A stretch of DNA of 64,000 bases, from assembly GCA_916048095.2 (NCBI GenBank), contig OU696570.1, forward strand, positions 4,456,518 through 4,520,517, given 5' to 3'. Numbering within the stretch: position 1 is the stretch's first letter; every line of letters begins with the position of its first letter. The position numbers and the translations under genes are program-made. The stretch is from Sacculina carcini. Its lineage: Eukaryota; Arthropoda; Thecostraca; Sacculinidae. The notes under the pieces are model-generated. The model did no database searches and had not been told where the DNA came from. It saw only the letters and a list, made by a program, of their open reading frames with translations. Positions 6,213-63,085 of the stretch are shown here, in pieces.

Positions 6213-6255
<43 letters not shown>

Positions 6256-6542: not shown

Positions 6543-6544
6543 TT

Positions 6545-6562
6545 TGGTACCGCGAGTGATTG
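6545..6562 (+). promoter_or_regulatory. Canonical tRNA 3'-end primer-binding site
   Basis: TGGTACCGCGAGTGATTG lies 2 nt after the LTR and begins with TGG, the complement of tRNA CCA. I could not identify the tRNA. This is the ordinary arrangement and contrasts with the 5'-tRNA sites of the other LTR elements here. Confidence 0.7.
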
Positions 6563-6622
6563 CTTCATCTTTTGCGACCCCTATTTGAACTTGTACTCAT
6601 TTCAGTCGTCAAATCTATCAGC

Positions 6623-9375: not shown

Positions 9376-10747
9376 ATGACAATCTTAACCTATTATGTGG
9401 AACTTCGTCGATGCAGCCGAGACCGTATCTGCCCAAGGAATGCCGACTGACTGTGTTTAAACAGCTCCACGAGTTTTCACATCCAGGCATGCAAGGCAGT
9501 GTGCGACTTTTGAAGACTAGATATTTGTGGCCCGGTCTTGACAAAGATGTGAAATTGTGGGTGAAATCTTGTCAAAAATCCAAGGTACACCGCCACACGA
9601 AAACACCACTCTCGCCATTTTCGATGCCGTGTTCCAGATTTGAGGTGGTTCATGATGACATTGTCGGCCCACTGCCGCCATGCACCGCACCTGGCCAGAC
9701 ATTTGCTTCACCGTACAGGTTCTTGCTTACGTACATCGATAGAGCGTCTCCTTGGGTTGAAGCAGCGCCTTTAACGAGTATCACTGCCGAGTCTATCGCA
9801 CGTGCATTTTTTTCCGTATGGGTATCTCGCTTTGGTGTGCCTCTGCACATAATAACAGACCGTGACCCCCAATTCGAAGCTCCACTCATGACATCCTTGG
9901 CGCAGACCGTCGGCTTTCACCGATTTAGAACGACCTCATATCACCCGCAGTCAAATGGATTAATCGAGAGAGTACACCGAGTGTTGAAAACCGCAATCGT
10001 TGCCCGACGACAGGAGTGGATGGACGCTTTACCTGCTGTACTGCTGGGTATTCGGATGTTGCCGGCTGAGACGGTTTTTTCTCCCTTCACAGCTATCACA
10101 GGTGCACAACTTTTATGTCCGCGGGTCAGCATAGATCCAGCGTCACCATCAGCAGAGCGCCACGACTTTGTGCAGCAGCTGGTGCGGCATATGCGCCAAA
10201 TAGATTTCTACTCACTGTCAGCTGGCAGCACACATCGCACCAAGCGACTTATGTGCCACACGACTTGTCTACCTGTACACATGTGTGGGCTCGCGTAGAT
10301 AGAGTTCGACAGCCACTGGAGGCTCCATATCGTGGCCCATTTCGGGTGGTACAACGAACATCACATGTGTTTCAGATCAAGTTACCTACTGGATAAATTG
10401 ATGCCGTGTCCATAGAACGCCTGAAACCGGCTTACTTACCGCAACCATCACAGTACCAGCATTCTAAGTCTCGCTCTGTGCTGTCCGACGGGCCGTCTTG
10501 CGTGCAGAATGATTCAAGTGAACCAACTGCACCCGATACCACCGCTTCTGCGAGAGCACGTCAAAGCAGGAACACACAATCGCCGACTGGTGTCACTATC
10601 TCAAATGACGAAACTGCTCTGTCGACGCCTGGTTCGCAGTTATTGACTGCCGACCGCACTGGCTCAGGGCTGCTGCAGTCCACAAAAAGTACACGTTCAG
10701 GACGCAAGGTGCGTTTCCGTGCTGATCCAGACTTTGTATATGTTTGA
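9372..10747 (+). pseudogene. Ty3/gypsy integrase and C-terminal tail
   Basis: The integrase frame 9372-10298 has the zinc-binding region (HEFSHPGMQGSV ... CQKSKVHRH; the second Cys is present and the first appears replaced by Ser). The DDE core is present: HDDIVGPLP (near 9652), TDRDPQFE (near 9859) and NGLIERVHR (near 9955). It then shifts frame to 10115-10396 (YRGPFRVVQR, the GPY/F-type module) and 10406-10747 (SIERLKPAYL, then a low-complexity tail). Frame changes and a stop at 10396 mark decay. Confidence 0.85.
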
Positions 10748-11052
10748 TGTTTTATCAGTGAAATGTTTATGTATGTGTTTTGTGAATATTCACTGGATGC
10801 TAATGTTATTCAACGGTGATATTTGCAGGACTTCCCATGATGTGCTTGCGCGTGTTATGTAATTACTATTTCTATTATATTCACACACGCTGTTTTGTAT
10901 GGTCACCTTTCTGCAGTTGTTTCTATGCAGGTATCAGAAGCACGGAATGACATGATTCCATTGTATATGTGTACCGCTGGCATGTGTTGTCCACTTATCC
11001 GCACCTCAAGTGCGACCTTGTCAGTGTGCTCCGCAACTGGGGCGGCATGTAT

Positions 11053-11412
11053 TGTGGTGGTTCTGTAGAACGCAATGTGAGCCGTATGTTTGTATGTGTG
11101 TGTGTGTGTGTGTGTGTGTAACTTACTAGAGTGTGTATGTGTGAACTGTGTGTGAATGAACGTGTCTCAATGGTTCAGTATGTCATGTTCGTGTCTGTAT
11201 ATGTGCGTCTCTGTGTGTGTGTGTGTATGAGTGTGTGTGTGCCTCAGGTTGTCGAAGGTGTGTTGACGGTGTATATCTGAATGAGTATGTGTGTTGGTGT
11301 GTATCGGTATATAAGTTCGTGTCATCCTATCGTTTGAGGCTGATTCTACCGATAGCTGAAGCGCTGTCAATATAAAGACCAGATGAATTCTGTATGTGGA
11401 CCGTTCACCCCA
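11053..11412 (+). repeat. 3' LTR of the Ty3/gypsy element
   Basis: Pairs with 6175-6542. It is followed by GTGT (11413-11416) and then the resumed L2 endonuclease. Confidence 0.9.
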
Positions 11413-11462: not shown

Positions 11463-11699
11463 TGTGGTGTGATCATGTGCAGTGGGAGAGAGTGTGTGTG
11501 TGAAAGATTGTGTGTGCGTGAACGTGTTAGTGTGTCTATATGTGATCGTGTATGGTTGAATTGTATATTGCGTGCGAGAGTGTGTGAGCGAGTGTGTATA
11601 GCTGTGTCGGTGAGTGTGACGCCTTGTGGGCGCGCGTGGGGCGGTGATGCACACGTGCGCCTGTCTGGAATATATCTAAATTTTGTGTTTGCTTCTACA
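11463..11699 (+). repeat. 5' LTR of element A
   Basis: TGTGGTGTGATCATGTGC...CTTCTACA; pairs with 12389-12627. Confidence 0.9.
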
Positions 11700-12388
11700 A
11701 GCTATTTCGGCCTTTTAGTTTGGAGGTGGTTTTTTGTCTGCGACCCGGCTTCAGCAGCAGAGATAGTGCCCTCCAGTATTAGCAGCGGCCTGGATGAAGT
11801 GGTGGAGGTGCTCGGCGGCGTGTCAGGTTGGTGTGCAGGGGGACGGCAGGAGGGCATGGTGCCGGCAGGAAGCAGCGGAGGAGCTGCAGCCGAGGGTCGC
11901 TCGTCGTCCCGCCTGCACTGGTGTTAGACTCGTCGCCGGGCAGATAGAAGATCGCTGGTAGAAGCTGCTGGTGCTGGAGGGCATGTGAGAGAAAGAGGCT
12001 GCTGAAGCCGGAGGAGAAATGACGAACGACGACGACGGTGCGGCTGGCGTGTGCGGCGGAGTCACGGCTGTCTGCGACGGGGTGCTGAATAGCACGGGTG
12101 TCGGCGGGAGCACAGTGGGTGCTGGGAGGCCGAGGTGTTGTGCCCTGTCGCGGCAGCCGGTGATAAAGAAGACGGCAGGTTGCGGCGAAGCACTGAAGAT
12201 CACGGGCGGAGGCGGGAGCGCGGTGGACGCTGGGGCCTGACGTGTTGTGCTTCGCCGCAGCCACGGTGTGTGCATCTGGTGGAGGCCGTCGTCGAGTTAG
12301 GTTTTTTATTGGCTCCTGGTCTGCTTGGTTCGCGCTTTTCAATTGTCTGTTCTTTTGTTGATTTATGTTTCTTTAAAACAGGTGGAGG

Positions 12389-12627
12389 TGTGGTGTGATC
12401 GTGTGCAGTGAGGGAGAGAGTGTGTGTGTGAAAGATTGTGTGTGCGTGAACGTGTTAGTGTGTCTATATGTGATCGTGTATGGTTGAATTGTATATTGCT
12501 TGCGAGAGTGTGTGAGCGAGTGTGTATAGCTGTGTCGGTGAGTGTGACGCCTTGTGGGCGCGCGTGGGGCGGTGATGCCCACGTGCGCCTGTCTGGAATA
12601 TATCTAAATTTTGTGTTTGCTTCCACA
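12389..12627 (+). repeat. 3' LTR of element A
   Basis: TGTGGTGTGATCGTGTGC...CTTCCACA, directly after GGTGGAGG and followed by the GTAAG duplication. Confidence 0.9.
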
Positions 12628-15363: not shown

Positions 15364-15511
15364 TGTGGTGTAATCGTGTGTAGTGAGAGAGAGAGAGTGT
15401 GTGTGAAAGATTGTGAGTGCGTGAACGTGTTAGTGTGTCTATGTGTGATCGTGTATAGTTGAATTGTATATTGCGTGCGAGAGTGTGTGATCGTGTGTGT
15501 CTAGTTGTTTC

Positions 15512-15548
<37 letters not shown>

Positions 15549-15789
15549 TTAGTGAAGTGTGCATGCCCCGCAGCGGCGAGCGAGTGACCGGCTCGCCGCT
15601 GATTGGTTGTTGCGGCGGGTGAGGACTGTGCGTGTGTATGTGTGTCCGTGTGTGCTCCCGTGTGACACGGTGTGATCGGGGAGTCCTGTATGAGCTGCGG
15701 TTGTGGCGTGACGTCTTGTAGGCGCGCGTGGGGCAGTGATGCCCGCGCACGTCTGTCTCTAATATATTTTAGTCTTTTTGTTTTCTACA
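15364..15789 (+). repeat. 5' LTR of element B
   Basis: TGTGGTGTAATCG...TTTTCTACA. The long LTR subtype, with the CAGCGGCGAGCGAGTGACC segment in the middle. Confidence 0.9.
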
Positions 15790-16491
15790 AGCTATTTCGG
15801 CCTTTTTGTTTTGGAATTATTTTTGTCTGCGACCCGGCTTCAGCAGCGGAGATGGTGCCTTCCAGCATCAGTAGCGGCCTACCAGCGGAGAACAGCGGTG
15901 GAGGTGCTCGGCGGCGTGTCAGGTTGGTGTGCAGGGGGACGACAGTGCAGCATGATGCCGGCGGGAGGCAGCTGATGAGCTGTGGTCGAGGGATGCTGGT
16001 CGTCCCGCCTGCACTGGTGTAAGGCACGTCGCCGGGCAAGTACAGGATTGTCGGTGGAGGCGACGATCGCTGGTGGAGGATGCTGGTGCTGGACGGCAGG
16101 TGACAGAGAGGGGCTGCTGAAGCCGGAGGAAAACATGACGAGCGACGGCGTGGCCTGTGGGAGCGGCGACGTCCCGGCTGTTTGCGGCAGGGTGCTGAAG
16201 AGCACTAGAGTCGACGGGAGCATAGTGGGTGCTGGGGTCGAAGTGTTGTGCCCTGTCGCGGCAGCCGGTGATGAAGAGGACGGCAGGCTGCGGCGGAGCA
16301 CTGAAGAGCACGGGCGGAGGCGGGAGCGTGGTGGACGCTGGGGCCTGACGTGTTGTGTTTCGCCGCAGCCAAGGTGTGTGCATCTGGTGGAGGCCGTCGT
16401 CTAATTAGATTTTGGTTATTGGTTCATTTTTCCTGGTTTGCTTGGTTCGCGGTTTTTTGTTGATTTATGTTTCCTTAAAAACAGGTGGAGG

Positions 16492-17727: not shown

Positions 17728-17997
17728 TCATCCGACAACCCTCAAGCCACTACCACCAACATCCATAGCTTCAATACTCATTTCTCCGCACAAAACGTCT
17801 ACCCGAACAGCCCGAAGTATATAACTCCAGACTGAATCAATCTGAGCATCTCCACTTGAGCCTGAACTGAGCTACGTGCAGTAACCAACAAAAAAACAGA
17901 TTGTGGTCGTTGGAGATTAATGCGATGTGATTGAGATATTGCTGAGTTATTCTGGTGATTTTGTGGTTAGTTAATTTGACCAAGTTCGTTACCGTTT
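17728..17997 (+). other. Probable 3' UTR of the I-type LINE
   Basis: Non-coding. It continues past element C at 22573, as the CGTTT duplication shows. Confidence 0.55.
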
Positions 17998-18305
17998 TGT
18001 AACAAAACCAGAAATTGAAATATATTACAGACAGGCGCGCGTGGGCATCACCGCCCCACGCGCGCCTACAAGACGTCACACTCCGATCGCACCACAAACA
18101 CGCACACACACCAAGCCTCACCCGCCGTAGCAACCAATCAGCAGCGAGCCGGTCACTCGCCGCCGCCGCGGGCATGAACAATTCACGGCGTGTCAGTCAT
18201 ACTAGTACATACATACATACATACAAACATAGTACACAACACGAGCACAAACGCGAATAACACACACACACACACACACTAACACTCCATGCACATAACA
18301 CTACA
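17998..18305 (-). repeat. 3' LTR of element C
   Basis: On the minus strand it runs TGTAGTGTTATG...TTTTGTTACA. It contains the 12-bp GC hairpin at 18034-18066. Confidence 0.95.
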
Positions 18306-18476: not shown

Positions 18477-21400
18477 TTAAAATAATTGACGCGGCGCAGG
18501 ATTGACCCGTAATAAACGCACAGCAGAGCGACTAGGCAAGTCATTCGGTTGTTCACTCATCTGCACCGGTTCAACAACTCTTTCAGGCTGAACTGCAGCA
18601 GGCGGAACTGTCACGAGAGCCGGACGACGCTCTTCTTCTTGCTGCTGCTGCTGCTGCACACCAGGCGGCACACTGACAGCCACGCGTCGATTGCACGGCC
18701 TCAGACTTCTCACGTGACGAGGCATTCCGTCGACTTCGACGCTGAGCTGAGAGGTCACACCAGTCACAGTGCCGATGTGTGACCTGGTGTGACAACTTGC
18801 ACCTCGCTGCCGAACCCACACAACATCTCCAAGTTTGAACTTGCAGCGCACAGAAGCGTTGTTAACTTGAGCGTTGCCAGAATGTGGCGGCGTCGGGATT
18901 GGCCGCGACCGCACGCGATGTTTATATATCTGCATGGCAGGCGCGGAACTGTCTGTGCGGCTGTCCTTTGGAGTCATGTTGTACCAATGTACAGCTTCCG
19001 ATACAGAACAGTTCGACCTAGCAGCGATTGTTTTGATGGTGCGATGGCTGCGCTCAGCGATGGCATTTCCAGTGGGCTCATATGCGCACCGAAAAATCAA
19101 ATTGACACCCCATTTTTCGAGCATGCTTTTGAAAGCAGCGCTGCGAAACACAGTTGCGTTATCGGCCAGAACTTCCGCTGGTGAACCGCGCTCATAAAAA
19201 ATGTTCTCCAAGTGCAAGATGACATTCACACTGTCTTGCTGTCTCAGGTGACGCCACAATGAGAATCGCGACGGGCCACAGTCGATCACAGTGAGGTAAT
19301 GGTGAAGCCCTGCGTGCGTCACGTCGATGGCCAGACGATGCCAGTTGCGCTTTACGTGCAGCTTGCCTGCTGCCAAACGCACAGGAGCAGGATCAACTGA
19401 CTGGCATGCATCACAATTTCTCACCACCGTTTGGGCCATCCTTCTGCTCACACACGGGTCTTTCTTCTTCGAGAAATACAGTGTTCGCCTCACACCAGGG
19501 TGACCAGAGGCCTCATGCACGGCTCGCACGACAGCGAGAGGATCATGCGGTGAAGTACACGGTGCTGCCGCTGCTGCTGCCACTGACACGGCTGCATTAG
19601 GTTGCTTTCTCAGCCAGGCGGTGGGCACACGAGTCAGCTGGTTCGCCAGATTGCAACTTGAGCTGACGAATGCGACGTTAACGTCCAACTGGTACTCTGC
19701 CACCAGAGCCGTGAGAACAGATAACCTCCTGCGAATAAGCATTTCACTGGCGGCTTTTGTTTGAAGTCTCGATTGCCCACTCAATGCGTTGCTTATCCAG
19801 TGGAAGACTGTGCGGGAATCAGTAACTAGACGGAATTTTTTCAGCTTCCAAATAAGCGCCAGGTTCACACCTTTGACAGCAGCGTCGAGTACCGCCATAT
19901 TAATATGAACCGCATCCTCAGTGCGCAACCAGCATCCGTCTTCAATCACTGACCCGCCGATCTCCAATACCGCACCCATGGCCAATGAACTAGCATCGGT
20001 CCAAACAGTGGCGTCTCCATCAACCACATCCCAGCGTCCAGTTGCAGGATCAGCATCTTTCACACGGGCCAATATTTCCTCCAGCATTTTGCGGACTTCT
20101 CCACCATCACGCAGCTTGTCATCCCAGCTTGCAGTTGCAGCATTTGCTCGACGCTTGATGTATGCTGCCGCCACACGCAACCAGCCACACACTGGCATGT
20201 GCCCTGTCAGTTTGCCACAAACTGAAAACACGTTCCGCCGTGTGAGAACATCCGGTATGTCGCCAACACAGTTGTCACGGCGCCAACGCAGATGACGACC
20301 ATGGCTGTCCACTCTGACACCAAGGACACGAGCGCCGTCTCGCATTCGCTCGGGAGCTTTGCACACGAGGCCGTATTTTTCCAGGTGTGCAACCACCTTG
20401 TCCACACCAACGACATTCGCGTTCACAAGCACATCGTCGATGTAGGAAGACGTACTCTGAAACACGGTCGGGTCCTGTTTCAATACAGTCTCCAGTACGG
20501 CTTGCATCACCAATGGGGCGACATTGAGACCGAATCCGAGTCTAGTGAGACAAAAACGGCGGCCCTCGAAATTGACGGTTTGAAAAGGCCACAAGTCGGA
20601 GCTCACGGCGATTTGCAAGTAAGCCTTCCTCAAATCGATCAACACCGCACTGCCTCCAACACGTCTCCACAGGCGAATTTTGTCGGCACAAACGTCACTG
20701 TTGGCAGTGAATGGATTTATTAAGTCATTGAGCTCTCTGAAGTCAAGGACTGGCCTGGTTTTTTGCTTATTATTTTGAACGACAGCCATTAGGGGAATTA
20801 ACGCTTTCGCAGGTCCGTGCTCTCGTTCATCATATCGTTGCAGCCAGCCACGCTTGATCCAGTCCGATACTTCTCTACGGTATTCCATTCGAACACTGGG
20901 CTTCATGGCGTATTCACGAACTTTGTTTTTTAGAGCACCTGGTGGCCGTCCGTCCGCCCATTTCCACGCAGCTGTCCACTGTTTCTTGTCAGCACTGAAT
21001 TTTGCTGTAAAGTCTTGTCGTTCCATGACAATGTCGGTCAGTTTACCCGGCATTGCACCAGAAGCGTCAGCCGCTCCAGCCGTGTACTGAGTTCCTGCTG
21101 TCGCGTCACAATGCACACCAAGTCTCACATTACCCTCGCCACTGATGCACACACCACCGTAGGACGATATACCATTCATACCCAACACAAATTCAAAATT
21201 CAACGGTTTGAAGCTGACAACCATGGCTTCAACAAATTTTGGTGAATGAGCAGCACTTTGTAAGCATACCATTGTCCTGCCAAGACTCCTATGCTTGGTG
21301 CCGTCTACAGTTACAATAGTGCAAACATATGGTTCCCATGAACCACAACACGACTGATGAATTATACACTTGGAACAGCCTGAGTCGACGAGTACAAATT

Positions 21401-21503
21401 TCTCACAATCATTTACTCGCATGAGTGTCGTGGGTAACGCGTCATTGGCAAACGAGAAGACGCCAACGCTCACGCGTCTTCTCGCTGTCCGTTTCCCGAA
21501 CAT
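18477..21503 (-). CDS. pol: Pol polyprotein of element C
   Basis: 1008 residues in one frame. An aspartic protease is near residue 40 (FVLVDSGCSKCI). The RT covers roughly 210-400: RPVLDFRELN, VLIDLRKAYLQIAV, CLTRLGFGLNVAP and catalytic SYIDDVLVN. RNase H begins near 500 (TVWTDASSLAMG, then HINMAVLDAAVKG and LVTDSRTVFHW). The integrase has HEASGHPGVRRT...CDACQ zinc binding, then LAIDVTH, LADNATVF and NAIAERSHR as the DDE triad. A chromatin-tail-like module follows (KFKLGDVVWVRQRG), then a Gln/Pro-rich end. The first ATG (21503) is probably not used: the natural entry is by -1 shifting from gag at GGGAAAC, after which the frame reads KRTARRRVSV. All catalytic residues I can see are present. 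Confidence 0.93.
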   Translation of the reverse strand: MFGKRTARRRVSVGVFSFANDALPTTLMRVNDCEKFVLVDSGCSKCIIHQSCCGSWEPYVCTIVTVDGTKHRSLGRTMVCLQSAAHSPKFVEAMVVSFKPLNFEFVLGMNGISSYGGVCISGEGNVRLGVHCDATAGTQYTAGAADASGAMPGKLTDIVMERQDFTAKFSADKKQWTAAWKWADGRPPGALKNKVREYAMKPSVRMEYRREVSDWIKRGWLQRYDEREHGPAKALIPLMAVVQNNKQKTRPVLDFRELNDLINPFTANSDVCADKIRLWRRVGGSAVLIDLRKAYLQIAVSSDLWPFQTVNFEGRRFCLTRLGFGLNVAPLVMQAVLETVLKQDPTVFQSTSSYIDDVLVNANVVGVDKVVAHLEKYGLVCKAPERMRDGARVLGVRVDSHGRHLRWRRDNCVGDIPDVLTRRNVFSVCGKLTGHMPVCGWLRVAAAYIKRRANAATASWDDKLRDGGEVRKMLEEILARVKDADPATGRWDVVDGDATVWTDASSLAMGAVLEIGGSVIEDGCWLRTEDAVHINMAVLDAAVKGVNLALIWKLKKFRLVTDSRTVFHWISNALSGQSRLQTKAASEMLIRRRLSVLTALVAEYQLDVNVAFVSSSCNLANQLTRVPTAWLRKQPNAAVSVAAAAAAPCTSPHDPLAVVRAVHEASGHPGVRRTLYFSKKKDPCVSRRMAQTVVRNCDACQSVDPAPVRLAAGKLHVKRNWHRLAIDVTHAGLHHYLTVIDCGPSRFSLWRHLRQQDSVNVILHLENIFYERGSPAEVLADNATVFRSAAFKSMLEKWGVNLIFRCAYEPTGNAIAERSHRTIKTIAARSNCSVSEAVHWYNMTPKDSRTDSSAPAMQIYKHRVRSRPIPTPPHSGNAQVNNASVRCKFKLGDVVWVRQRGASCHTRSHIGTVTGVTSQLSVEVDGMPRHVRSLRPCNRRVAVSVPPGVQQQQQQEEERRPALVTVPPAAVQPERVVEPVQMSEQPNDLPSRSAVRLLRVNPAPRQLF
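21453..21497 (-). promoter_or_regulatory. -1 ribosomal frameshift signal, element C
   Basis: On the minus strand the slippery heptamer GGGAAAC (21491-21497) lies in the gag frame as G-GGA-AAC. After a 6-nt spacer comes a stem CGAGAAGACGC / GCGTCTTCTCG (11 bp, 10-nt loop, 21453-21484). Gag stops inside the loop and pol continues in -1. This is the textbook layout. Confidence 0.88.
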
Positions 21504-22246
21504 TGTGCAGCAAAATGTCCTTTAACGCCACATTTAAAGCAGTAAACATTTCTCGGCTTATGACGGCTATTATAACGCGTACTTGACTTGTGGCTTTTCT
21601 CACTCAACTGATTGCACGTTTGTGCGCATTTGAATGACTGTTCTTTGGTAGCATTGACACAGGAACAACTGCCACAATGGCGGTCACTCGTCACTGAGGT
21701 GGAACAAGACATACCTGCAATGGCGGCCTCTTCGTCAGCCAATATTCCGCGAGCGCTCTCCACCAGCTGAGACACGGTCATTTCTGATATTCGAGCGTTG
21801 GCACGGAGTGTTCGACGCACGTAGTCGGGCAGACCGTGGACGAAAGCGCTGTTTATCGCTGCTTCCTGCAGTCCACCAGCGAGCTGAGCGAGTCGTTTTA
21901 TATCCGCAAGATACGCGTCAACCGGTTCTCTAGACTGTAGCCGACGCGTCACCAGCTGATCATAAGCAGAAAAAGAATCGACCTCGAATGCCTTCACCAA
22001 CGCTCGCTGAACTTGATCCACATCAAGTTTGCTTTGATCCGAAAGCTTGTCATACACTCGGTATGCATTTCCTGTGAGTCGAAGTGGGATGATGGCAGCA
22101 ACAAACGAAACGTTGTACAATCTGCATATCCAATGCAACTTGCTGAACCATTCAGACACGGAGCAATCATCATTGCCTCTGAACTCCGGAACAAGTTTGA
22201 TGTCAAACGCCATCGCACCATGAGCAACGCTCTCAGACTTGGACAT
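21470..22246 (-). CDS. gag: Gag polyprotein of element C
   Basis: 258 residues starting only 15 nt after the LTR, so the whole leader is the primer-binding region. The capsid-like part (residues 15-170) includes LVPEFRGNDDCSVSEWFSKL, AIIPLRLTGNAYRVYDKL, VDAYLADIKRLAQLAGG and AFVHGLPDYVRRTLRA. A basic linker follows, then one CCHC zinc knuckle CFKCGVKGHFAAQC near residues 238-251. It ends SGNGQREDA within the frameshift hairpin. Related Gags are in E2 and G3. Confidence 0.92.
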   Translation of the reverse strand: MSKSESVAHGAMAFDIKLVPEFRGNDDCSVSEWFSKLHWICRLYNVSFVAAIIPLRLTGNAYRVYDKLSDQSKLDVDQVQRALVKAFEVDSFSAYDQLVTRRLQSREPVDAYLADIKRLAQLAGGLQEAAINSAFVHGLPDYVRRTLRANARISEMTVSQLVESARGILADEEAAIAGMSCSTSVTSDRHCGSCSCVNATKEQSFKCAQTCNQLSEKSHKSSTRYNSRHKPRNVYCFKCGVKGHFAAQCSGNGQREDA

Positions 22247-22249
22247 TGT

Positions 22250-22261
22250 GCCGAAATAGCT
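22250..22261 (-). promoter_or_regulatory. PBS matching tRNA-Phe 5' end, element C
   Basis: The + strand reads GCCGAAATAGCT, identical to nucleotides 1-12 of animal tRNA-Phe (GAA), and abuts the LTR without a gap. The following LTR bases do not match the tRNA. No TGG site exists between LTR and gag ATG (15 nt). Confidence 0.85.
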
Positions 22262-22567
22262 TGTAACAAAACCAGAAATTAAAATATATTACAGATAGGC
22301 GCGCGTGGGCATCACCGCCCCACGCGCGCCTACAAGACGTCACACTCCGATCGCACCACAAACACGCACACACACCAAGCCTCACCCGCCGCAGCAACCA
22401 ATCAGCAGCGAGCCGGTCACTCGCCGCCGCCGCGGGCATGAACAATTCACGGCGTGTCAGTCATACTAGTACATACATACATACATACAAACATAGTACA
22501 CAACACGAGCACAAACGCGAATAACACACACACACACACACTAACACTCCATGCACATAACACTACA
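22262..22567 (-). repeat. 5' LTR of element C
   Basis: Pairs with 17998-18305. The GC hairpin GGCGCGCGTGGG / CCCACGCGCGCC is at 22298-22330, next to TGACGTCTTGTA on the minus strand. Confidence 0.95.
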
Positions 22568-22572
22568 CGTTT

Positions 22573-22931: not shown

Positions 22932-23358
22932 TGTAGCGAACAGGCCGAGCAAAGCAGTAGTTAAGATGTATTTCTGATTAAAATACACGAACGTCACGAA
23001 AATACAGATTGATTCACAAGGGCACTCTCACGCGCAAAACTGTCTAACACAGAGAACTCTCTCGCACACAGAAAACCACCTAATCCGCACACTGCACCAG
23101 ACACACTGCCGAAAAACAACACATCGCCACACGCCCCCGCAAGCACGACCTCTTCCGTGCCGAGTCGCGGCTCGCCCCAGCGCCGCTCCTCCGAATCGGC
23201 GACAGCATATTGTTTAAACGCACACATACACGCACATACACACAAACGCACTCGCACGTCCACATATTAATCAAACACCGCGCATAACTGAAAGTCGGCA
23301 AATACTAAACCCATGCAGATGCACACACACACACACACGCACACACACACACACACAC

Positions 23359-25296: not shown

Positions 25297-28266
25297 TCAG
25301 GCCTCGCTGCCGCAACGTCCATCTGTATTTACACTTTGTTGGGCAGGGGAAACAAGAGTGAGTTCATCGTCACTGGTGTCCACTGATGTCTCCGCAGCTA
25401 CTTCCCCGCTTTGTCTATTGCCTCTCGGCCTCAAATGTCGCACGTGTCTGTACAGACCATCCACCTCTACACACTGTGCAGACACAACGTCAGTCACCAC
25501 ACCTTCTGACCACCTTTCAGTGCACCTACTTCCTGGCTGTTTCAACCAAACTTTGTCACCTTTTTTGAACTTTGGCGTCACTGGCTCACTATCCTCCGAA
25601 CAATTGTTGTCAATCCCTTTCGTTCTTAGATCATATCTGTAAATAATTGACGCTGGCGTGCGATCAGATGAAACATCGTCCAACGGCGTGACATTTTAAA
25701 GATAGACAGCCTCCAATATGTCACACTGTTTTCTTGCAGCTATCACCTTGATAGTGCGGTGGCTGCGTTCGACTATTCCATTGCCTGAAGGTGCATATGC
25801 ACACCTGTACTTGACGTGGACCCCCCACTCATTTGCAAAGCCAACAAACCTCTGGCTACGGAACGTCGTCTCGTTATCGGTCAGGATGCATTTGGGCGGA
25901 CCGCGATCAATGAATACATTTCGCAGCACGTCGACCACAACTTCCACGGTATGCGACCGTTGCGCACGCCATATTGCGAACCGAGATGGCCCACAATCAA
26001 TCAGGGTTAAATATGACTTTTCTCTGAAATGCGTGATGTCCATGGCCAGGCGCTCCCATACGCTCTCCACGCCCAAGTGTCCTCTCGTCCATCCAACAGG
26101 AGATGGGTCAATCGATCTACATATATCACACAAAGACACAACATTTTTGACGTCTTTCTTGGTCACGCTGCTTCCGTTCTTCCTGACAAAATACAATGTA
26201 CGTCTGACGCCCGGATGGCCCATTTCATGGTGCATTTTCCGAATCGTATCCTCCACCGCATGTACCGCAGCGGCGCACGACACCTTGGCCTCTGTCGCAG
26301 CCCTATTGTGTCCCAGCCATTCTCTTGGAACTCTGGTCAGTTCGTCAGCTTTGTTTTCTCTGGACGGAACCAGTGTGACTGTTACTATCAAATGGTACTC
26401 GTCAATAAGTGATCTCATAATGTCCAATCTTCTGCGTACAAGCATATCAGCAGCCGCTTTTGTTCTCAACCTCGCCTTGTTAGTTAACATGTCTGAAACC
26501 CATTGCCTGACAGTGACTGAGTCCGTCATCAACTCAATTTCGCGCATTTCTCATGCAAGAGCTAGATTCAAGCCTTTTATGACCGCGTCGAGCTCAGCCA
26601 TATTTATGTGTTTCACGTCATCTTTCCTGAGCCAAGCACCATCTTCCACGATCTCTCCGTCAACTTCCATCGCAGCTCCCAAAGCCAGACAGCTGGCGTC
26701 TACCCACACCTTTGCTGTTTTACCCCTCACCGCCCACCGTCCGCACACCGGATCATGCTTGACTAGCTCGGTTTGAACCCGCTGCAAGCAACGCCGAACA
26801 CCCTCATGACCAATTTCGTCGTCCCATGATCTGCTGTTATCATTGGCAATTCTCTTTATGTATGCCGTGGCCACTCTCAGCCATCCACCAACGGGATAGT
26901 GTCCTATCCACCTGCTACATACAGATAAAATTGTCCGCCGTGTAAGCCGCTCGGGCAAGGCACACACATTATCATCACGAGACCATCTCATCTGCCGGTT
27001 CTGCCTGAAAACTCTGAGTCCGAGAAATCTGCTCGCATCCTTCGACGTCTCATTATCTTTGCACAACAGTCCGTACTTCTGCAAATGCTTGCAGCACATA
27101 TTCGGCACTCACCACATCCTCGTTCACTAGCACATTGTCGATATACGAGACAGTGCCTGACTCGACTAGCTTGTCCTGGAGCATCACAGTCTTGAGCACC
27201 GATTTCATGACCAGGGGTGCCACATTAAGCCAGAATCCAGCCTCGTGAGACAATACCTCTGTCCTCCGATCACAACTGTTTGGTAGGGCCACAGAGACTC
27301 GTGCACTCTTATTTGAAGGTACGCTTTCGTCAAATCAAGATCAGTCACATTATCCCCCTGCCTCCTCCACTGCCGTAAAACATGGGTACATACATCGGCA
27401 TCTCTAGTGTGCGAATCAACGAAAGTACTTAGCTCCCTGAAATCCATGAAAGGTCTTACTTTCTCACGTTGAGGCACGGCCATCAGCGGCAGTAGTCCTT
27501 TTGCCGGACCCAGCTTGCTCTCGTCATACCTCACCAACCAGCCATTATCTATCCAGCAATGCAGCTCGTTTTCAAATACCTCCTGATGTGTGTCGCCCAC
27601 GTGATATGACTCCACAGAATTCTTCAAGGGGCCCGGCTCTTTACCATTCGCCCACTTCCATCTGGCCGTCCAGGATTTTTCTTCCTCGTCATATTCAACC
27701 AGAAAATCGGTTTCTTCAGCTCTCAAACCCGCTTCGTTCATAGTCACCGCAGAACACGCAAAATCTGCACCACTTTCCTTCCGAATTGTCTTTCTCTCAC
27801 AGTCGTCAACGCCAAACCGGACCTCACGGGCTGAAGAAACAGATACACCACCAAGAACGGTAATAGCGTCCATGCCATTGATTAGATCAAAACCCATTGG
27901 ATGCGACGAGGCAACAATCACATTTATGAGTCGCGGAACTCCCCCACAACACACGCGAATAGTTCCGCGTCCGATACAATCGAAATTATTCTGACTCAAC
28001 GTGAGTACAGATATCATTTCTCTCGACCAGTCATCACACACGTCCCCGCACACAATGCTCGCCGAGCACCCAGTGTCTACAAGCGCGTGCCGACGGACAC
28101 CGTTCACTTCAATGCGAATATCCGGCAGCTGCCCATTCACTGACTGGGGGAAGAGACCGGCGCAGTTTCTCCTCCCCCTTCGCCGTTTCCCGAGTGCTGT
28201 GCAGTGCGGCATTGAAAAGCCAGGTGACCGAGACGGTTGCAGTTGTAGCAGCGTCTCCCACGCCAA
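25297..28266 (-). pseudogene. pol: Pol polyprotein of E2, defective
   Basis: Mostly one frame, entered by -1 shifting near 28185. The protease is ALVDTGCSASIV. The RT spans 27600-27050: RPFMDFRELSTF, LDLTKAYLQIRV, then a short excursion into another frame (27292-27108) that contains SYIDNVLVN, where the second catalytic Asp has become Asn. RNase H follows (KVWVDASCLALGAA, HINMAELDAVIKG), broken by a stop near 26550 where relatives have Trp. The integrase (HEMGHPGVRRT, CDICRSID, LAMDITHF, LTDNETTF, NGIVERSHR) runs to a stop near 25690, then the C-terminal tail (FKKGDKVWLKQPG). Confidence 0.9.
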
Positions 28267-28934
28267 CCAGACGGTCCAGGCCGGCTAGTTCGGGCTGCAC
28301 CCTCAGTCGAAGACGGACAACGTGCAGCGAAGTGGCCAATCCCACCGCACGTGAAGCACCTGCGCTCATCACTGCGATCGCTGGCCACCGACTCTTTCTC
28401 AGGCTTCGCCACAATACAAGAGTCCGATGCATGTTTTTCGATCTCATGTAACAGCACTCTTGAACGCTCGAGCAGCTCAGATGGGCTCATGTTGTCCAAG
28501 CGAGAGCCCATGCGAAGCAGCTGGCGTAAGCTATCGGGAAGACCTGAAACGAACGCGCACATTACAAGTGAGTCTGGAACGTCACCGATGACAGAAGCCA
28601 GACGCTTGAGTTCTGAGAAGTAACTGTCTACAGCTTCTCCGGACTGTCTTTTCCTGCTGATGAAGTTATCATAAGCCGTGAATTTGCCTACTGAAAAGGC
28701 AGTCAGTAGCGCATGCTTGATTCGCTTGTAGTCTTGTTTCGCATCCTCAGGAAGTTGTTGGTAGACGGCGAAAGCGCCTCCAGTCAGCCTTAGCGGCACA
28801 ACGGAGTGCAGGTCGGTAATTTGCCTGAGCCGACACATCAACTCTACTTTTTCCAGCCACTCACTGACTGAGGATGAAGACCCATCGAACTCTGGGATGA
28901 GTCTCAAATCAGCACTTGTCTCACTCATTTCCAT
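28137..28934 (-). CDS. gag: Gag polyprotein of E2
   Basis: 265 residues, open throughout, beginning MEMSET 16 nt after the LTR. The capsid region includes LIPEFDGSSSSVSEWLEKV, VVPLRLTGGAFAVYQQL, VDSYFSELKRLASVIG and AFVSGLPDSLRQLLRM. Two CCHC knuckles follow: CFTCGGIGHFAARC and CYNCNRLGHLAFQC. The end runs over the frameshift hairpin and stops in the overlap with pol. Compared with element C it has one extra knuckle. Confidence 0.9.
   Translation of the reverse strand: MEMSETSADLRLIPEFDGSSSSVSEWLEKVELMCRLRQITDLHSVVPLRLTGGAFAVYQQLPEDAKQDYKRIKHALLTAFSVGKFTAYDNFISRKRQSGEAVDSYFSELKRLASVIGDVPDSLVMCAFVSGLPDSLRQLLRMGSRLDNMSPSELLERSRVLLHEIEKHASDSCIVAKPEKESVASDRSDERRCFTCGGIGHFAARCPSSTEGAARTSRPGPSGWRGRRCYNCNRLGHLAFQCRTAQHSGNGEGGGETAPVSSPSQ
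28146..28191 (-). promoter_or_regulatory. -1 ribosomal frameshift signal, E2
   Basis: GGGAAAC (28185-28191), 6-nt spacer, then GGGGGAGGAG / CTCTTCCCCC (10 bp with one G-U, 13-nt loop). The arms differ in sequence from those of element C while position and spacing are the same. Confidence 0.85.
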
Positions 28935-28938
28935 ATAT

Positions 28939-28950
28939 GCCGAAATAGCT
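28939..28950 (-). promoter_or_regulatory. PBS matching tRNA-Phe 5' end, E2
   Basis: GCCGAAATAGCT on the + strand abuts the LTR at 28951 although the LTR itself is unrelated to that of element C. The gag ATG follows after only 4 more bases. Confidence 0.85.
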
Positions 28951-29352
28951 TGTAGCGAACAGGCCGAGCAAAGCAGTAGTTAAGATGTATTTTTGATTAA
29001 AATACACGAACGTCACGAAAATACAGATTGATTCACAAGGGCACTCTCACGCGCAAAACTCTCTAACACACAGAACTCTCTCGCACACAGAACACCACTT
29101 AATCCGCACACTGCACCAGACACACTGCCGAAAAACAACACATCGCCACACGCCCCCGCAAGCACGACCTCTTCCGTGTCGAGTCGCGGCTCGCCCCAGC
29201 GCCGCTCCTCCGACTCGGCGACAGCATATTGTTCAAACACACACATACACGCACATACACACAAACGCACTCGCATGTCCACATATTACTCAAACACCGC
29301 GCAGAACCGAAAGTTGGCAAATACTAAACACATACAGATGGACACACACACA

Positions 29353-29399
<47 letters not shown>

Positions 29400-29578: not shown

Positions 29579-29954
29579 ATTATTGTGTTTATTGTGTATT
29601 GCATGGTATTGTATTTTGTACTATATATAATTGTGTGTGCGTGCATGTGTATTTGTGTGCGTACGTGGGAGAGTGATTTTGTGTACGTTTTTGTATGCGC
29701 GCGCGGAAGTAGCTGCGTTGCATAAGCGCGAGCTATGAGTGCATGCATGCGCGGGTGGTATCCGCCCGGAGTCAACGGTCGCTCGTGCATGTTGGGCAGT
29801 GCGTTACTGGTGAATTGAGATTGTGGTGTTTGTGCGGTGGCTTAGAGTGTTGTTCGGTGGAGAGAGTAGTATTTAGTGCATTGTGTTGCGGTGTGATCGT
29901 GTGGAATTGTGCTTTCTTGTTCTTTTTTATTTTTTGTGCTTACATTCAAATACA
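29579..29954 (+). repeat. 5' LTR of G3
   Basis: ATTATTGTGTTTATTG...CAAATACA. The usual TG start seems lost in this copy; the 3' copy has TGTATTATG. Confidence 0.8.
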
Positions 29955-29966
29955 AGCTAACCGGCC
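29955..29966 (+). promoter_or_regulatory. PBS matching tRNA-Ile 5' end, G3
   Basis: AGCTAACCGGCC directly follows the LTR. Its complement GGCCGGTTAGCT equals nt 1-12 of animal tRNA-Ile (AAU). The same tRNA window as in element C, but a different tRNA. Confidence 0.82.
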
Positions 29967-29975
29967 TTTCGGAAA

Positions 29976-30677
29976 ATGGAGTCTTCATGTGGTTTCGACT
30001 CTCGCGTGATACCAGAATTTGATGGTCAGAGTGACATTGTGGAATGGTGGACTCGCACGGAGATGATGTGTCAGCTCAAAGGCGTCGATGTGATGAGCGT
30101 AGTGCCACTACGTCTCTCAAAAGGTGCGTTTGTTGTGTGGTCCCAACTGCCGGATGAACTTCGCCGTTGTGCGAAAGGAGCTCGCAGCGCTTTGTTCTCG
30201 GCGGTTGGAGTGGACAGATTTCGTGCATACGCCCTGTTCACCAGTCGTCGTCTGCAAGAAGGTGAGTCGCCTGACGTATATTTAGCAGACTTGAAAAAGC
30301 TTGCAGTTTCATTCGGTGGCTTATCCGATAATCTGCTGATATGTGCATTTGTAAATGGCCTACCCGAGCACGTGGCGATCAGTATTCGTGCAAGCACAGT
30401 GTCAGAGTCTCTGTCGTTGAGTGATATTACGAGCAGAACTCGCATGGTGTTGCAAACGACAAAAAGCCCGCCGAGCTGTCTAGCCGCCAATGCCGGGTCG
30501 CTTTCACCCCGAAAATGCTACATTTGCAATCAGACTGGTCATTTGAGTAGAGATTGCCCGAAAAGGAAATATCGGATGCGATATTACAATTGTTCCAAGT
30601 TGGGTCACATGGCGAAGGACTGTCAGGGAAACGAGGAAGGAGAGGGTTCGTCAGCGCCAGCACCCTCTCCTCAGTGA
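29976..30677 (+). CDS. gag: Gag polyprotein of G3
   Basis: 233 residues starting 21 nt after the LTR. VIPEFDGQSDIVEWWTRTEM, SVVPLRLSKGAFVVWSQL, PDVYLADLKKLAVSFGG and AFVNGLPEHVAISIRA match the Gags of C and E2. Two knuckles: CYICNQTGHLSRDC is complete; the second, YYNCSKLGHMAKDC, has Tyr in place of its first Cys. It ends in the overlap with pol at the frameshift hairpin. Confidence 0.88.
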   Translation: MESSCGFDSRVIPEFDGQSDIVEWWTRTEMMCQLKGVDVMSVVPLRLSKGAFVVWSQLPDELRRCAKGARSALFSAVGVDRFRAYALFTSRRLQEGESPDVYLADLKKLAVSFGGLSDNLLICAFVNGLPEHVAISIRASTVSESLSLSDITSRTRMVLQTTKSPPSCLAANAGSLSPRKCYICNQTGHLSRDCPKRKYRMRYYNCSKLGHMAKDCQGNEEGEGSSAPAPSPQ

Positions 30678-33547
30678 GCAATGAGGCGCTTCCTGCAGTC
30701 ACTGTGTTTATTGATCAACGTGAGTCTTGTGTGCTTGTTGATACCGGTTGTTCTCGCTGTATTGTGTGGAGTGGAGTTTGTAGAACATGGACACCAGTAA
30801 CGACTCATGTGAATACTCTGGGTGGCATGGACTTTGACTGTTCGGGTGTTGGTGAATGTTGTGTGAGTGTCGAGAAACAGTCAGTTGTTGTAAAAGCCCT
30901 TGTTGTGCAGCACAAGCCGATGGGATATGATGCGATTCTGGGAATGAACGCCATATCAGCGCTGGGGGGTGTTTGCGTACGTGCTGACGGTGGGGTGCAT
31001 TTTCAAGTGAGTGCCAAGGCTGCATACTGTGCTGCGGCTGGTGATATTTTTGAGTCAAAACCTGGACATGAGGCACGGTTCGATGCAGCTAAAAACATGT
31101 GGACTTGCAAGTGGAAGTGGCTTGACGACCACGAGCCGCAGCGTTTGACATACAACAGCGTTTGACTGCACAATATCATGTGAGGCAACACGCCAAGGAG
31201 GCCTTCGACAGAGAGATCAATGAGTGGATCAGCAACAAATGGTTGATTCCCTATGATGAGAGTGTACATGGGCCTGCCCGCTGTTTGATTCCACTGATGG
31301 CAGTAATCCAAAAGAACAATAACAAAGTGAGACCGGTCCTCGATTTCCGAGAATTAAATAAACACATTGACACTCTTTCTGCAGATGCTGAGGTATGCAA
31401 TGACAAGCTGAGGGAATGACGGATGAAGGGAGACAATGTGTTTATCATGGACCTCAAGAAAGCCTACCTGCAGATATCAGTTGACAGTTTATTGTGGCCT
31501 TTCCAGACGGTGAAGTTCAATGGTGTGCTGTACTGCTTGACCAGGCTTGGATTCGGGTAGAGTTAGGCGCCCATGATCATGCATACGGTGGTCGACTAGG
31601 TGATGGAACAGGACGACCAGATAAGACGTGGGACATCGGCATATTTTGACGATGTTCTCATTGACGGGAACATTGTGTCACCCGAAGCAGTGAAGAAGCA
31701 CTTTGCCAAGTACGGCCTTGAATCTAAAGAGATTCAAAAGTTCTCTGACGGAACCCGAGTGCTCGGCTTACACGTGTACTCGTCGGAGTCTGGCAAGTTG
31801 ATGTGGAAAAGGGACAATGCCGTGGGTGAGTGTCCGGAACAGCTCACGAGACGAGTCGTGTTCTAACTATGCAGAACTGTGGTGTCGCATTATCCTGTCG
31901 GTGGCTGGCTGCGAGTTGCCGCTTCGTACATCAAGCGACTTGCATCCGAAGCGACAAACAGCTGGGACGAACCGATTTGTGACTCGGCACTCCAGAGTCA
32001 TGTGAACGAAGTGATGTCGAGACTACAGCATAGCGATCCCGTGAGAGGCGTGTGGAAGATCAATGGTGATTCGGCGAATGTATGGGTAGACACCAGCAAC
32101 ATTGCCATTGGTGCGTTGGTTGAGGTAAATGACGAGAAAGTGGAGGATGCTTGCTGGTTGAGAAGGGACAGCCACCACATAAACCTCAGTGAGCTAGATG
32201 CCGTGATAAAGGGGCTTGGACTGGCGATCAAGCTAAAATTTCGAAAAATTATGCTGTTCACAGATTCATCGACGGTGCATGTATGCCTCAGGGGACTCCT
32301 AACGGCAAATGAGCGTGTCAGGACCACTGCCTGTAGTGAGCTGCTGATCAGGCGCCGACTAGAGATCATCGGTGGATTGTTGGACGAGTACAACTTGACT
32401 GTTGAAGTAATGAAGGTGGCGTCTGAGAGGAATAAAGCAGACTCGTGTGCCTGGTCACTGGTTGAAACAGGACAAATCAGTGTGTGCCGCAGGTGCTAAA
32501 CCGACTGACGTGCGTTCTCGCATCAGGCAGATTCACCACGACGCCGGACATCCGGGCATCCACCGAACGCGGTACTTTTGCCGGAGGAAAAAGCTTTACG
32601 TGAGCAAGCAGGAAGTCGCAGATGTTGTGAGGTCGTGTGACATCTGCAATTCGATTTGCCCGGCGTCAGTGAAATGGAGACACGGGAAACTGAGCGTGAA
32701 TCGAAACTGGCACCGACTGGCAGCAGACTTTGTGCATGTGCGTAATTTGTTGTATGTGTCTGTCATCGATTGTGGTCCTTCGAGGTTTTTTCTCTGGCGC
32801 AAGGTTCGCAGTCGCTGCAGCGATGAAGTGGCGGACATTTTCGATGATATTTTTAGTAAGCGTGGACCCCCAAATGAAATAATTCTGGACAACGACACAT
32901 CTTTTCGTGGACAGTCTTTTGTCCGGGCGATGGAACGTTGGGGTGTGAGCATTCGCTATCGGTGTGCTTTTCGCCCAGAAGGAAACGGCATAGCGGAGAG
33001 GTCGCATCGGACTGTCAAGACCATTGTGGCGAGGAATCAGTGCAGTGTGAGAGAAGCTGTGATGCTGCACAATTTGACGCCAATGGATGACGCCGGTCGC
33101 AGACCTGTTGATGGTGTGTATCGATACAGAGTGCGAATGCGTGACGAACTCCCGCGACAGCGCAGCACATCTGTTCGTGGCTGCGATTATGAGGTCGGCG
33201 ATCCTGTCTGGGTGAGGCAGCGCGGAGACCGATGTGATGCTGTCGGTCGCAGGGGTACCGTCACAAGTGTCGTGTCAGACCTCGTTGTCGCCTTCGATGG
33301 CATCAACAGGCACGTGGGTGATGTCAGACCACGGGCGGTGACGGAGAACGGTGGCGGCACGAACTCATTGGACTGGGCGAGCGGTGACGTGGCGGACGAT
33401 AGCGAGTCTAACGTCATGGTGTACGGCGAGAGGACTGCCGTGACTGATCCGGCGAGTGGCGGTCAGCAGCAGGCGCAACCACAGCGACAGAGTCAGCGTC
33501 CGGCGCGGTTCAATGATTATGTTGTGTATAATTCTAATCGGGCATAG
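30554..33547 (+). pseudogene. pol: Pol polyprotein of G3, broken
   Basis: The protease is CVLVDTGCSRCIVW (near 30735). RT pieces are 31162-31419 (RPVLDFRELNKH), then past a stop MDLKKAYLQISVDS, CLTRLGFG followed by two stops, and 31600-31866 with AYFDDVLIDGN. RNase H is 31879-32499 (ANVWVDTSNIAIGA, HINLSELDAVIKG). The integrase 32447-33547 changes frame and has HHDAGHPGIHRT, CDICNSIC, LAADFVHV, ILDNDTSF and NGIAERSHR, then YEVGDPVWVRQRG and a Gln-rich end. It shares the full architecture with C and E2 but cannot be expressed as one chain. Confidence 0.9.
30626..30671 (+). promoter_or_regulatory. -1 ribosomal frameshift signal, G3
   Basis: GGGAAAC (30626-30632), 5-nt spacer, then AGGAGAGGGT / ACCCTCTCCT (10 bp, 14-nt loop). 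Third instance of the same layout. Confidence 0.85.
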
Positions 33548-33570
33548 TGATTCTTAGAATCAGGGGGGTA

Positions 33571-33946
33571 TGTATTATGTTTATTGTGTATTGCATGGTA
33601 GTATATTTTGTACTATATATAATTGTGCGTGCGTGCATGTGTATTTGTGTGCGTACGTGGGAGTATGATTTTGTGTACGTTTTTGTATGCGCGCGCGGAG
33701 GTAGCTGCGTTGCATAAGCGCGAGCTATGAGTGCATGCATGCGCGGATAGTATCCGCCCGGAGTCAACGGTCGCTCGTGCATGTTGGGCAGTGCGTTACT
33801 GGTGAAGTGAGAGAGTGGTGTTTGTGCGGTGGCTAAGAGTGTTGTTCGGTGGAGAGAGTAGTATTTAGTGCATTGTGTTGCGGTGTGATCGTGTGGAATT
33901 GTGCTTTCTTGTTCTTTTTTATTTTGTGTGCTTACATTCAAATACA
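33571..33946 (+). repeat. 3' LTR of G3
   Basis: TGTATTATGTTTATTG...CAAATACA, preceded by AGGGGGGTA. Confidence 0.85.
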
Positions 33947-34143: not shown

Positions 34144-34437
34144 TGTAGCAAAAACAAAAATGTAAATTATATTACAGACAGGCGCGCGTGGGCATCACCA
34201 CCCCACGCGCGCCTACAAGACGTCACACCACAATCGCACCACCAACAAGACTCTCAGCTCACCGTCACACACGGGAGCACAAACGGACACACACACACGC
34301 ACAGTCCTCACGCACACCGCCACAACCAATCAGCGGCGAGCCGGTCAATCGCTCGCCGCCGCGGGGCATGCACACTTCATGAAACGCATACATACAAACA
34401 CATCACCAAACAACGCAAACACGAACACAAACGCGAA

Positions 34438-34526
<89 letters not shown>

Positions 34527-34581
34527 CACAGACACTCCAACGCGCTCACACACTCTCTCTCTCGCTCACAATCACACCACA
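34144..34581 (-). repeat. 3' LTR of element D
   Basis: Minus strand TGTGGTGTGATTGTGAGC...TTTGCTACA equivalent; (CA)n at 34440-34521. Confidence 0.9.
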
Positions 34582-35262
34582 CCTCCACCTGTTTTTACAG
34601 AAACATGAACTATAGAGCATACAATAAAAAAACGCATAACAAACAAACAAAAACAATCAAACCCGACGACGGCCTCCACCAGACGCACACACCTTGGCTG
34701 CGGCGAAGCGCAACACGGCAGGCCCCAGCATCCTCCACGCTCCCGCCTCCGCCCGTGCTCTTCAGTGCTCCGCCGCAGCCTGCCGTCCTCTTCATCACCG
34801 GCTGCCGCGACAGGGCACAACACCTTGACCCCAGCATCCACCATGCTTCCGTCGACACCGGTGCTCTTCAGCACCCTACCGCGACAGCCGTAACGTCACC
34901 GCACATGCAGGCCACGCCGTCGTCTCAACTCCTTCGTTTTCTCCTACGGCTTCAGCAGCTCCTTTCTCTCACATGCCCTCCAGCACCAGCAGCCTCCACC
35001 AGCGACCTTCTATCTGCCCGGCGACAAGTCCAACACCAGTGCAGGTGGGACGACGAGCAACCCTCGGCCACAGCTCCCCCGCAGCTTCCTGCCGGCACCA
35101 TGCTCTCCTGCCGTCCCCCTGCACACCAGCCTGACACGCCGCCGAGCACCTCCACCACGTCCTCCAGGCCGCTGCAAATACTGGAGGGTACTATCTCCGC
35201 TGCTGAAGCCGGGTCGCAGATAAACAATATTTCCAAATAAAAGACAAAAGGCCGAAATAGCT

Positions 35263-35717
<455 letters not shown>

Positions 35718-52335: not shown

Positions 52336-52448
52336 AGCTATTTCGGCCTTTTTGTTTTGGAATTATTGCTTGTCTGCGACCCGGCTTCAGCAGGAGAGAT
52401 AGTGCCCTCCAGTATTAGTAGCGGCCTGGAGAACGTGGTGGAAGTGCT
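51899..52448 (+). mobile_element. Truncated non-autonomous LTR element E
   Basis: One LTR (51899-52335), the tRNA-Phe 5' complement AGCTATTTCGGC (52336-52347) and about 100 bp of the interior shared with A, B, D and F (CGACCCGGCTTCAGCAGGAG, then GATAGTGCCCTCCAGTATTA), breaking off at 52448. No second LTR. Confidence 0.87.
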
Positions 52449-62395: not shown

Positions 62396-63085
62396 AGCAG
62401 TTTCGGCTTTTTTTATTTGGAATTATTGTTTGTCTACGACCCGGCTTCAACAGGAGAGATAGTGCCCTCCAGTATTAGTAGCGGCCTGGAGCACATGGTG
62501 GAGGTGCTCGGCGGCGTGTCAGGTTGGTGTGCAGGGGGACGACAAGAGAGCATGGAGCCGGAAGGTGGCAGCGTTGGAGCTGCGGCCGAGGGTTGCTCGT
62601 CGTCCGCCTGCACTGGTGTTAGACTCGTCGCCGGGCAGCTGGAAGATTGCTGATGGAGGCTGCTGGTGCTGGAGGGCAGGTGAGAGAGAGGTGCTGCTGA
62701 GGGCGGAGGAAGGAAACGAACGACGGCGACGGCGTGGCTTGCGTTAACGGCGACGTCCCGGCTGCTTGCGGCAGGGTGCTGAAGAGCACTGGAGTCGACA
62801 GGAGCATAGTGGATGCTGGGGTCGAAGTGTTGTGCCCTGCCGCGGAAACCGGTGATGAAGAGGACGGCAGGCTGCGGCGGATCACTGAAGAGCACGGGCG
62901 AGGCGGGGGCGTGGTGGATGCTGGGGCCTGACGTGTTGTGCTTCGCCTCAGCCAAGGTGTGCGTCTGGTGGAAGCCGTCGTCGAGTTAGGTTTTTTGTTC
63001 TGTTGATTTCTCTGGCTTGCGTATTTTGTTTACTGTTTAGTTGTCTACTGTTCAGTTTATTTGTTTATTTAAAAACAGGTGGAGG

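Follow-up and report, generated by a model that had tools for sequence, protein, structure and literature searches.

Which RNA end could start reverse transcription in LTR elements whose 5' LTR is followed by a 12-mer complementary to the first 12 nucleotides of a tRNA? This question is raised by several elements of the window, i.e., the whole 64-kb stretch of Sacculina carcini DNA that was analysed. We argue that the 12-mer is very probably the minus-strand primer binding site (PBS) of a large lineage of LTR elements with Gypsy-like gene order, and that a tRNA cut between nucleotides (nt) 12 and 13 would act as the primer.

A 12-mer of the tRNA-Phe type beside 5' LTRs

Exact copies of AGCTATTTCGGC are found at 11700, 15790, 22250 (minus strand), 28939 (minus), 35251 (minus) and 52336, and adjoin the 5' LTR at these six sites, while a two-mismatch copy at 62396 belongs to element F. 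A search of the window returned every position that the first-pass annotation had given for the 12-mer in elements A, B, C, D, E and E2 and, with two mismatches, in F. At up to two mismatches, AGCTATTTCGGC has 10 matches in the window, and the shuffles gave a mean of 3.47 and a largest value of 8, with 0 of 100 reaching 10. The remaining two-mismatch matches (29703, 50186 and 55488) have no LTR-like ...ACA end ahead of them; such an end directly precedes the 12-mer at 7 of the 7 sites named (A, B, C, D, E, E2 and F).

LTR pairs are present in the window for A, B, C, D, E2, F and G, the last being described below, and a second LTR of E was not found within it. Reading by eye, we saw no 12-mer after the 3' LTRs of A, B, C, D, E2, F and G, and the 12-mer is thus internal sequence. 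Target duplications of 5 bp, also read by eye, fit A, C and D, and none was found for B.

Structure of element C

Element C lies on the minus strand and carries its primer site, the complement of tRNA-Phe nt 1-12 by sequence match, at 22250..22261. The site adjoins the 5' LTR (22262..22567, TGTAG...TTACA), which pairs with a 3' LTR at 17998..18305 that has no 12-mer after it, and the 5-bp target duplication AAACG is present at 22568-22572 and 17993-17997. The gag gene (21473..22246, minus) has a Retrotrans_gag match just below the cut-off (9.2e-5) and a zinc knuckle above it; its ATG at 22246 agrees with the earlier claim that gag starts 15 nt from the LTR. The pol ORF (18477..21521, minus) encodes reverse transcriptase (RT), RNase H and integrase (rve) in this order. 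RVT_1 and DUF7047 (PF23088) were both above the cut-off for the RT, the predicted RNase H is a weak match below it (0.0024), and the piece tested for a protease had no Pfam match. The order of the domains, with RT and RNase H ahead of integrase, is Ty3/Gypsy-like (Metaviridae order), and since RT precedes integrase, C is not Copia-like.

The RT of C is 25% identical over 153 aa to that of the window's other Gypsy-like element. Among the best 120 of 413 matches in public proteins, relatives of the C-type RT occur in Trichinella, Trichuris, Chionoecetes, Petrolisthes and Hydra, and none was confirmed in the prokaryote and viral collections.

The LTR of C (22262-22567) is itself a mosaic, its first 210 nt resembling the LTR of its own family (L008, 94%) and about its last 100 nt matching the short element D (35263-35717, 89%). 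This pattern would fit strong-stop DNA made on D-type RNA and then transferred to C-type RNA.

Other elements of the window

Element E2 has an exact 12-mer at 28939..28950 (minus), LTR matches at 28951-29377 and 22932-23358, and gag at 28140-28934; its short RT piece had no Pfam match. An additional element, G, which the first-pass annotation had overlooked, spans 29581-33946 on the plus strand and is bounded by a pair of LTRs (5', 29581..29954; 3', 33573-33946). Its primer site AGCTAACCGGCC (29955..29966, plus) is complementary without mismatch to nt 1-12 of tRNA-Ile(AAT) as encoded by this genome, and was recovered in the genome-wide search at G000:C1:4486470-4486483. The gag of G (29976..30677, plus) has zinc knuckles and belongs to the same gag family (A1) as those of the window's other such elements. 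An RNase H-like piece (31867-32463) stands ahead of an integrase piece (32414-33544), which again is the Ty3/Gypsy-like (Metaviridae) order. In their RNase H segments, G and E2 share 40 and 49% identity with C.

The LTR pairs of A, B, D and F lie 926-1,138 nt apart, start to start, and are accompanied by a primer site of the Phe type. In the short element A the site is at 11700..11711 (plus), between LTRs at 11463-11699 and 12389-12627, with the target duplication GTAAG; in B, also short, it is at 15790..15801 (plus), behind a 5' LTR at 15364-15789. The short element D has its site at 35251..35262 (minus), LTRs at 35263-35717 and 34144-34581, and the target duplication GTCGG. The two-mismatch site of F (AGCAGTTTCGGC) is at 62396..62407 (plus), and the exact 12-mer of E at 52336..52347 (plus); the LTRs of E and F are 90% identical. 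By contrast, a different Gypsy-like element (6171-11412, with LTRs at 6171-6542 and 11049-11412) has a TGG-starting sequence at 6545..6562 (plus), two bases past the LTR, which is a candidate site without a tRNA match.

Two further features were observed in the window. An ORF at 43977-45236 (minus), beside reverse transcriptase-like ORFs, contains a cysteine-rich stretch which by eye resembles what we take to be a zinc finger of the nuclear-receptor type, and 58503-59426 encodes a Pao/BEL-like protease domain (Peptidase_A17).

Match of the sites to tRNA-Ile and tRNA-Phe

The complement of AGCTAACCGGCC, GGCCGGTTAGCT, is exactly the first 12 bases of the genome's tRNA-Ile(AAT) genes (L095 and L096). 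The Ile-type site is the complement of nt 1-12 of a host tRNA-Ile, not of its anticodon arm, and at the level of sequence the Ile case is complete. The Phe- and Ile-type sites differ at 4 of 12 positions, both end opposite tRNA nt 1, and both place the 3' end of the primer at U12. Because two tRNAs fit in the same register, a single lineage appears to use two tRNAs from nt 1 to nt 12. With 45 tRNAs on offer, the probability that one site type fits nt 1-12 of some tRNA by chance is about 2.7e-6, and the computed 12-bp duplexes, at -18.7 and -23.1 kcal/mol, are stable.

The assignment of AGCTATTTCGGC to tRNA-Phe was made on the start of animal tRNA-Phe, which we take to be GCCGAAATAGCT. A whole tRNA-Phe gene was not found in the assembly by pattern searches and BLAST, and no tRNA-Phe was among the 30 typed of 51 tRNAs listed by an Rfam tRNA search in which 63 of 15,013 candidates were scored. 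BLAST gave only two tRNA-Phe-like 3' pieces, L082 (G000:C19:4480881-4480915; nt 38-72 at 94%) and L083 (G000:C12:8527627-8527656; nt 38-67 at 100%). Since both begin at nt 38, an intron-bearing tRNA-Phe was considered, and was rejected because no 5' half lies upstream of either piece. A tRNA-Phe gene must exist in the organism and may be missing from the assembly; as none was found, the Phe assignment stands on the presumed animal sequence together with the in-register Ile case. The next-best own tRNA for the Phe-type site is tRNA-Thr(cgt), with 3 mismatches, within a small set comprising Ala, Arg, Cys, Ile, Lys, Met and Thr only.

Occurrence of the sites in the genome

The 12-mer with the LTR end TACA ahead of it (TACAAGCTATTTCGGC) occurs 694 + 694 times in the 264-Mb genome, against 0 for the reversed control and a random expectation of 0.12. 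In 30 genomic loci that were cut out (L005-L034), which include six copies of the window and some others that are near-identical, the 12-mer stands behind several unlike LTR ends. The Ile-type pattern GGCCGGTTAGCTYR was found 195 + 200 times, and its control 11 + 8 times (19). Among 100 places listed for this pattern, 97 have ...GCTTG, the form that follows LTRs ending in CA; the two tRNA genes account for 2 with ...GCTCA, and a single place has ...GCTTA.

To avoid selection by the site itself, loci were also picked by protein similarity alone. The RT of C gave 142 matches, and the 10 loci read comprised 5 with an exact Phe-type site, 2 with one mismatch, 2 with two and 1 with three; those with two or three mismatches form one family, in which the site is at the same place. 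With the RT piece of E2 as query (150 matches, 20 read), 13 loci had an exact Phe-type site, 2 an exact Ile-type site, 3 a Phe-type site with one mismatch, and 2 had none. Overall, a Phe or Ile 12-mer was present in 28 of these 30 RT-chosen loci, which were hand-picked across identity classes and contigs and are not random draws; 20 sites were exact and 8 had 1-3 mismatches, and 26 of the 28 were of the Phe type and 2 of the Ile type.

The RNase H of G gave 151 matches, and 40 among the matches listed were used, on contigs C1-C4 and C6 up to 4.0 Mb, the contigs for which the Ile-type pattern was completely listed. We examined 39 of the 40, the one left out being in a nested array on C1. An exact Ile-type site was located 1,900-2,002 nt upstream on the right strand in 28 loci, and in none at the mirror distance downstream. 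Ten further loci, read at the expected distance, had an Ile-type site with one mismatch (7) or no site (3), and one locus is the L102 element, with an exact Phe-type site. The site was thus present in 36 of the 39 RNase H-chosen loci and exact in 29. The first-pass annotation had made its reading depend on conservation of the 12-mer across family copies, and a Phe- or Ile-type site was present at 63 of the 68 distinct protein-chosen loci. On brief inspection, the site was absent from the stretch read at the other five (L108, L111, L119, L120 and L126). No third tRNA type appeared among the 68 loci in this search for the Phe and Ile 12-mers.

Limits and variants of the conserved stretch

Conservation around the site was measured over 15 family groups, made up of 28 loci and G grouped by similar flanks. 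The conserved stretch consists of the LTR end ACA and 12 bases, and stops opposite tRNA nt 1; from +1 onward the commonest base is shared by at most 10 of the 15 family groups, and beyond ACA the flanks are unlike on both sides. The exact match, the register, the position and the conservation are properties of the site as observed. If the site must pair with the 5' end of a tRNA, or is copied from it, the stretch should stop opposite tRNA nt 1, whereas a signal for protein binding or packaging gives no reason to expect such a limit. Whether a PBS is copied from the primer or inherited varies by element according to passages of PMC7472051, in which retroviruses may copy it and Ty1 and Ty3 inherit it.

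Two family groups carry variant sites. In the one with AGCTATTTCGCA, L085 and L087 have two mismatches to the Phe complement and L086 has three, through one further change, while AGCTATTTCGTC (L106 and L109) departs from the Phe complement in its last bases. These two groups indicate that the last bases of the Phe-type site are not strictly kept. The variants in L085-L087, L106 and L109 perhaps reflect tRNA variants or a relaxed pairing at tRNA nt 1-2.

Search for 3'-CCA and self-priming sites

Other kinds of primer site were sought in 31 elements, namely L005-L034 (including six of the window's) and G, with F left out. The annotation's claim that no TGG site follows the LTR proved right, as no TGG occurs within the first 15 nt past the LTR in any of the 31. 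Phe or Ile 3'-CCA sites with fewer than 3 mismatches were also not found in them. Classical 3'-CCA tRNA priming was rejected for lack of a TGG-starting site at the LTR edge. The best complement of the site within 600 nt upstream was at chance level in 30 of the 31 elements (4-6 mismatches; shuffle means 3.9-4.5), the sole exception being L012, with a 2-mismatch complement 533 nt upstream. Near the window's elements, no right-strand complement was found at up to 2 mismatches. Self-priming of the Tf1/sushi kind was rejected on the 30 of 31 elements without complementarity beyond chance.

Proposed priming mechanism and alternatives

Annealing, cut and priming, as we infer them from the sequences, would proceed as follows. 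The element RNA (AGCUAUUUCGGC in the Phe type) would pair with the 5'-terminal 12 nt of a tRNA, the partner presumably being tRNA-Phe in most families read and tRNA-Ile(AAU) in others, and the acceptor and D stems of the tRNA would open for this pairing. The primer must offer a 3' OH at nt 12, opposite the first base of the site, and an uncut tRNA lacks one there, so that a cut between nt 12 and 13 would be needed; since this position is within the D-stem of the folded molecule, the tRNA would have to open first. The cut would leave a new 3' OH at U12, which could prime DNA synthesis into U5, the first cDNA base copying the last base of the LTR. A likely cutter would be the RNase H of the element, acting on a short RNA-RNA duplex as in Tf1, or alternatively a host nuclease that yields a 5' tRNA fragment. 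Tf1, with a tRNA taking over the part of its transcript, offers the closest parallel. The first-pass annotation had proposed that a 5' tRNA fragment reaching U12 is the primer, and the independent tRNA-Ile(AAT) site in the same register argues for this proposal; with the second tRNA, sequence-level support for 5' tRNA priming is strengthened.

A cut in the anticodon region, as in copia, might alternatively provide a longer 5' tRNA half that anneals through nt 1-12 and has its 3' overhang trimmed to nt 12. Half-tRNA primers are known in Copia elements, according to parts of PMC6317226 and PMC10886601, and nt 38 is where both tRNA-Phe-like 3' pieces of the genome start; however, the half-tRNA sites described in those parts of PMC10886601 pair with the anticodon region. 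Besides, pairing stops here at nt 12, so that the overhang would have to be removed exactly, and the domain order of C is not that of Copia, which makes such trimming unlikely. The tRNA 5' end might also merely tether or package an intact tRNA, with another RNA end as primer, and tRNAs of some elements do make extra contacts with the genome RNA. The site, however, directly adjoins the LTR, at the place that defines the start of the cDNA, and neither a Phe or Ile 3'-CCA site nor a self-primer lies nearby in the 31 elements, which leaves tethering a slim chance.

Pairing of the first bases of the element RNA with the site has a counterpart of like geometry in Tf1, whose RNA anneals to its site by its first 11 bases, which RNase H then removes (PMC7175516, in part), but the upstream complementarity at chance level and the lack of a right-strand complement in the window make self-priming scarcely credible here. 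Just as remote is the reading that common ancestry, or a role in integration or packaging, has preserved the 12-mer and that its match to a tRNA is due to chance. The families are indeed related through their RT, but the second site type, changed at 4 of 12 positions, also fits a tRNA in register despite the low chance given above, and neither flank is conserved past the LTR end. Priming by the 5'-terminal 12 nt of a tRNA thus remains the reading that we favour.

Comparison with known priming systems

A plant survey (PMC6317226, in part) distinguishes three primers, namely the whole tRNA, the half-molecule left by a cut in the anticodon stem of a tRNA, and the self-primer; none of them is a tRNA 5' end, and in plants half-molecule primers are confined to Copia elements. 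Primer sites of animal and fungal TRIMs correspond to tRNA 3' ends or anticodon loops, and the half-tRNA sites of Copia to the anticodon region of tRNA-iMet, or in rust fungi also of tRNA-Tyr, tRNA-Ile and tRNA-Asp, in the sections of PMC10886601 at hand. For Tf1, whose own site pairs with the first 11 bases of its RNA, the RNase H cut falls between bases 11 and 12, and Cryptococcus Tcn2-5 may have novel priming, according to an excerpt of PMC7175516. The Cer1 site fits the 3' end of tRNA-Pro (PMC3315495, in part), and the accessible portion of PMC5445492 describes no tRNA 5'-end site. We found no description of a tRNA 5'-end primer site in the literature searched, i.e., outside subscription journals and Repbase, where a prior account may exist.

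There is about an even chance that these elements represent a fourth mode of starting reverse transcription in LTR elements, in which the RNase H of the element clips the 5' 12 nt off a tRNA in a Tf1-like manner. Such a mode may be an animal-wide habit of this RT group (DUF7047), which has relatives in Trichinella, Trichuris, crabs and Hydra, and it could represent an intermediate stage linking tRNA priming with self-priming. A 5'-end primer would join the logic of tRNA priming with that of Tf1 self-priming, and the prediction that follows from it is tRNA cleavage between nt 12 and 13. If true, programs that seek TGG may call such elements PBS-less.

The likeness to copia/Ty5 half-tRNA priming would lie in the use of a 3'-truncated tRNA as primer. 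The primer there ends in the anticodon region, whereas here it would end at nt 12, with a site reaching tRNA nt 1, and the gene order of C, with RT before integrase, is also different. As for the short elements, A, B, D and F resemble TRIM-type LTR elements in having close LTR pairs with a primer site, but they carry the 5'-end tRNA site of the present lineage. With Ty3/Gypsy elements primed by the 3'-CCA end, the lineage shares gag, RT, RNase H and integrase, LTR ends in CA and 5-bp duplications (A, C and D), although it would use the opposite end of the tRNA. As in Tf1/sushi, its site would pair with the 5'-terminal 11-12 nt of an RNA, and these nucleotides must be cut off that RNA to prime; the pairing RNA, however, would here be a host tRNA and not the element's own transcript.
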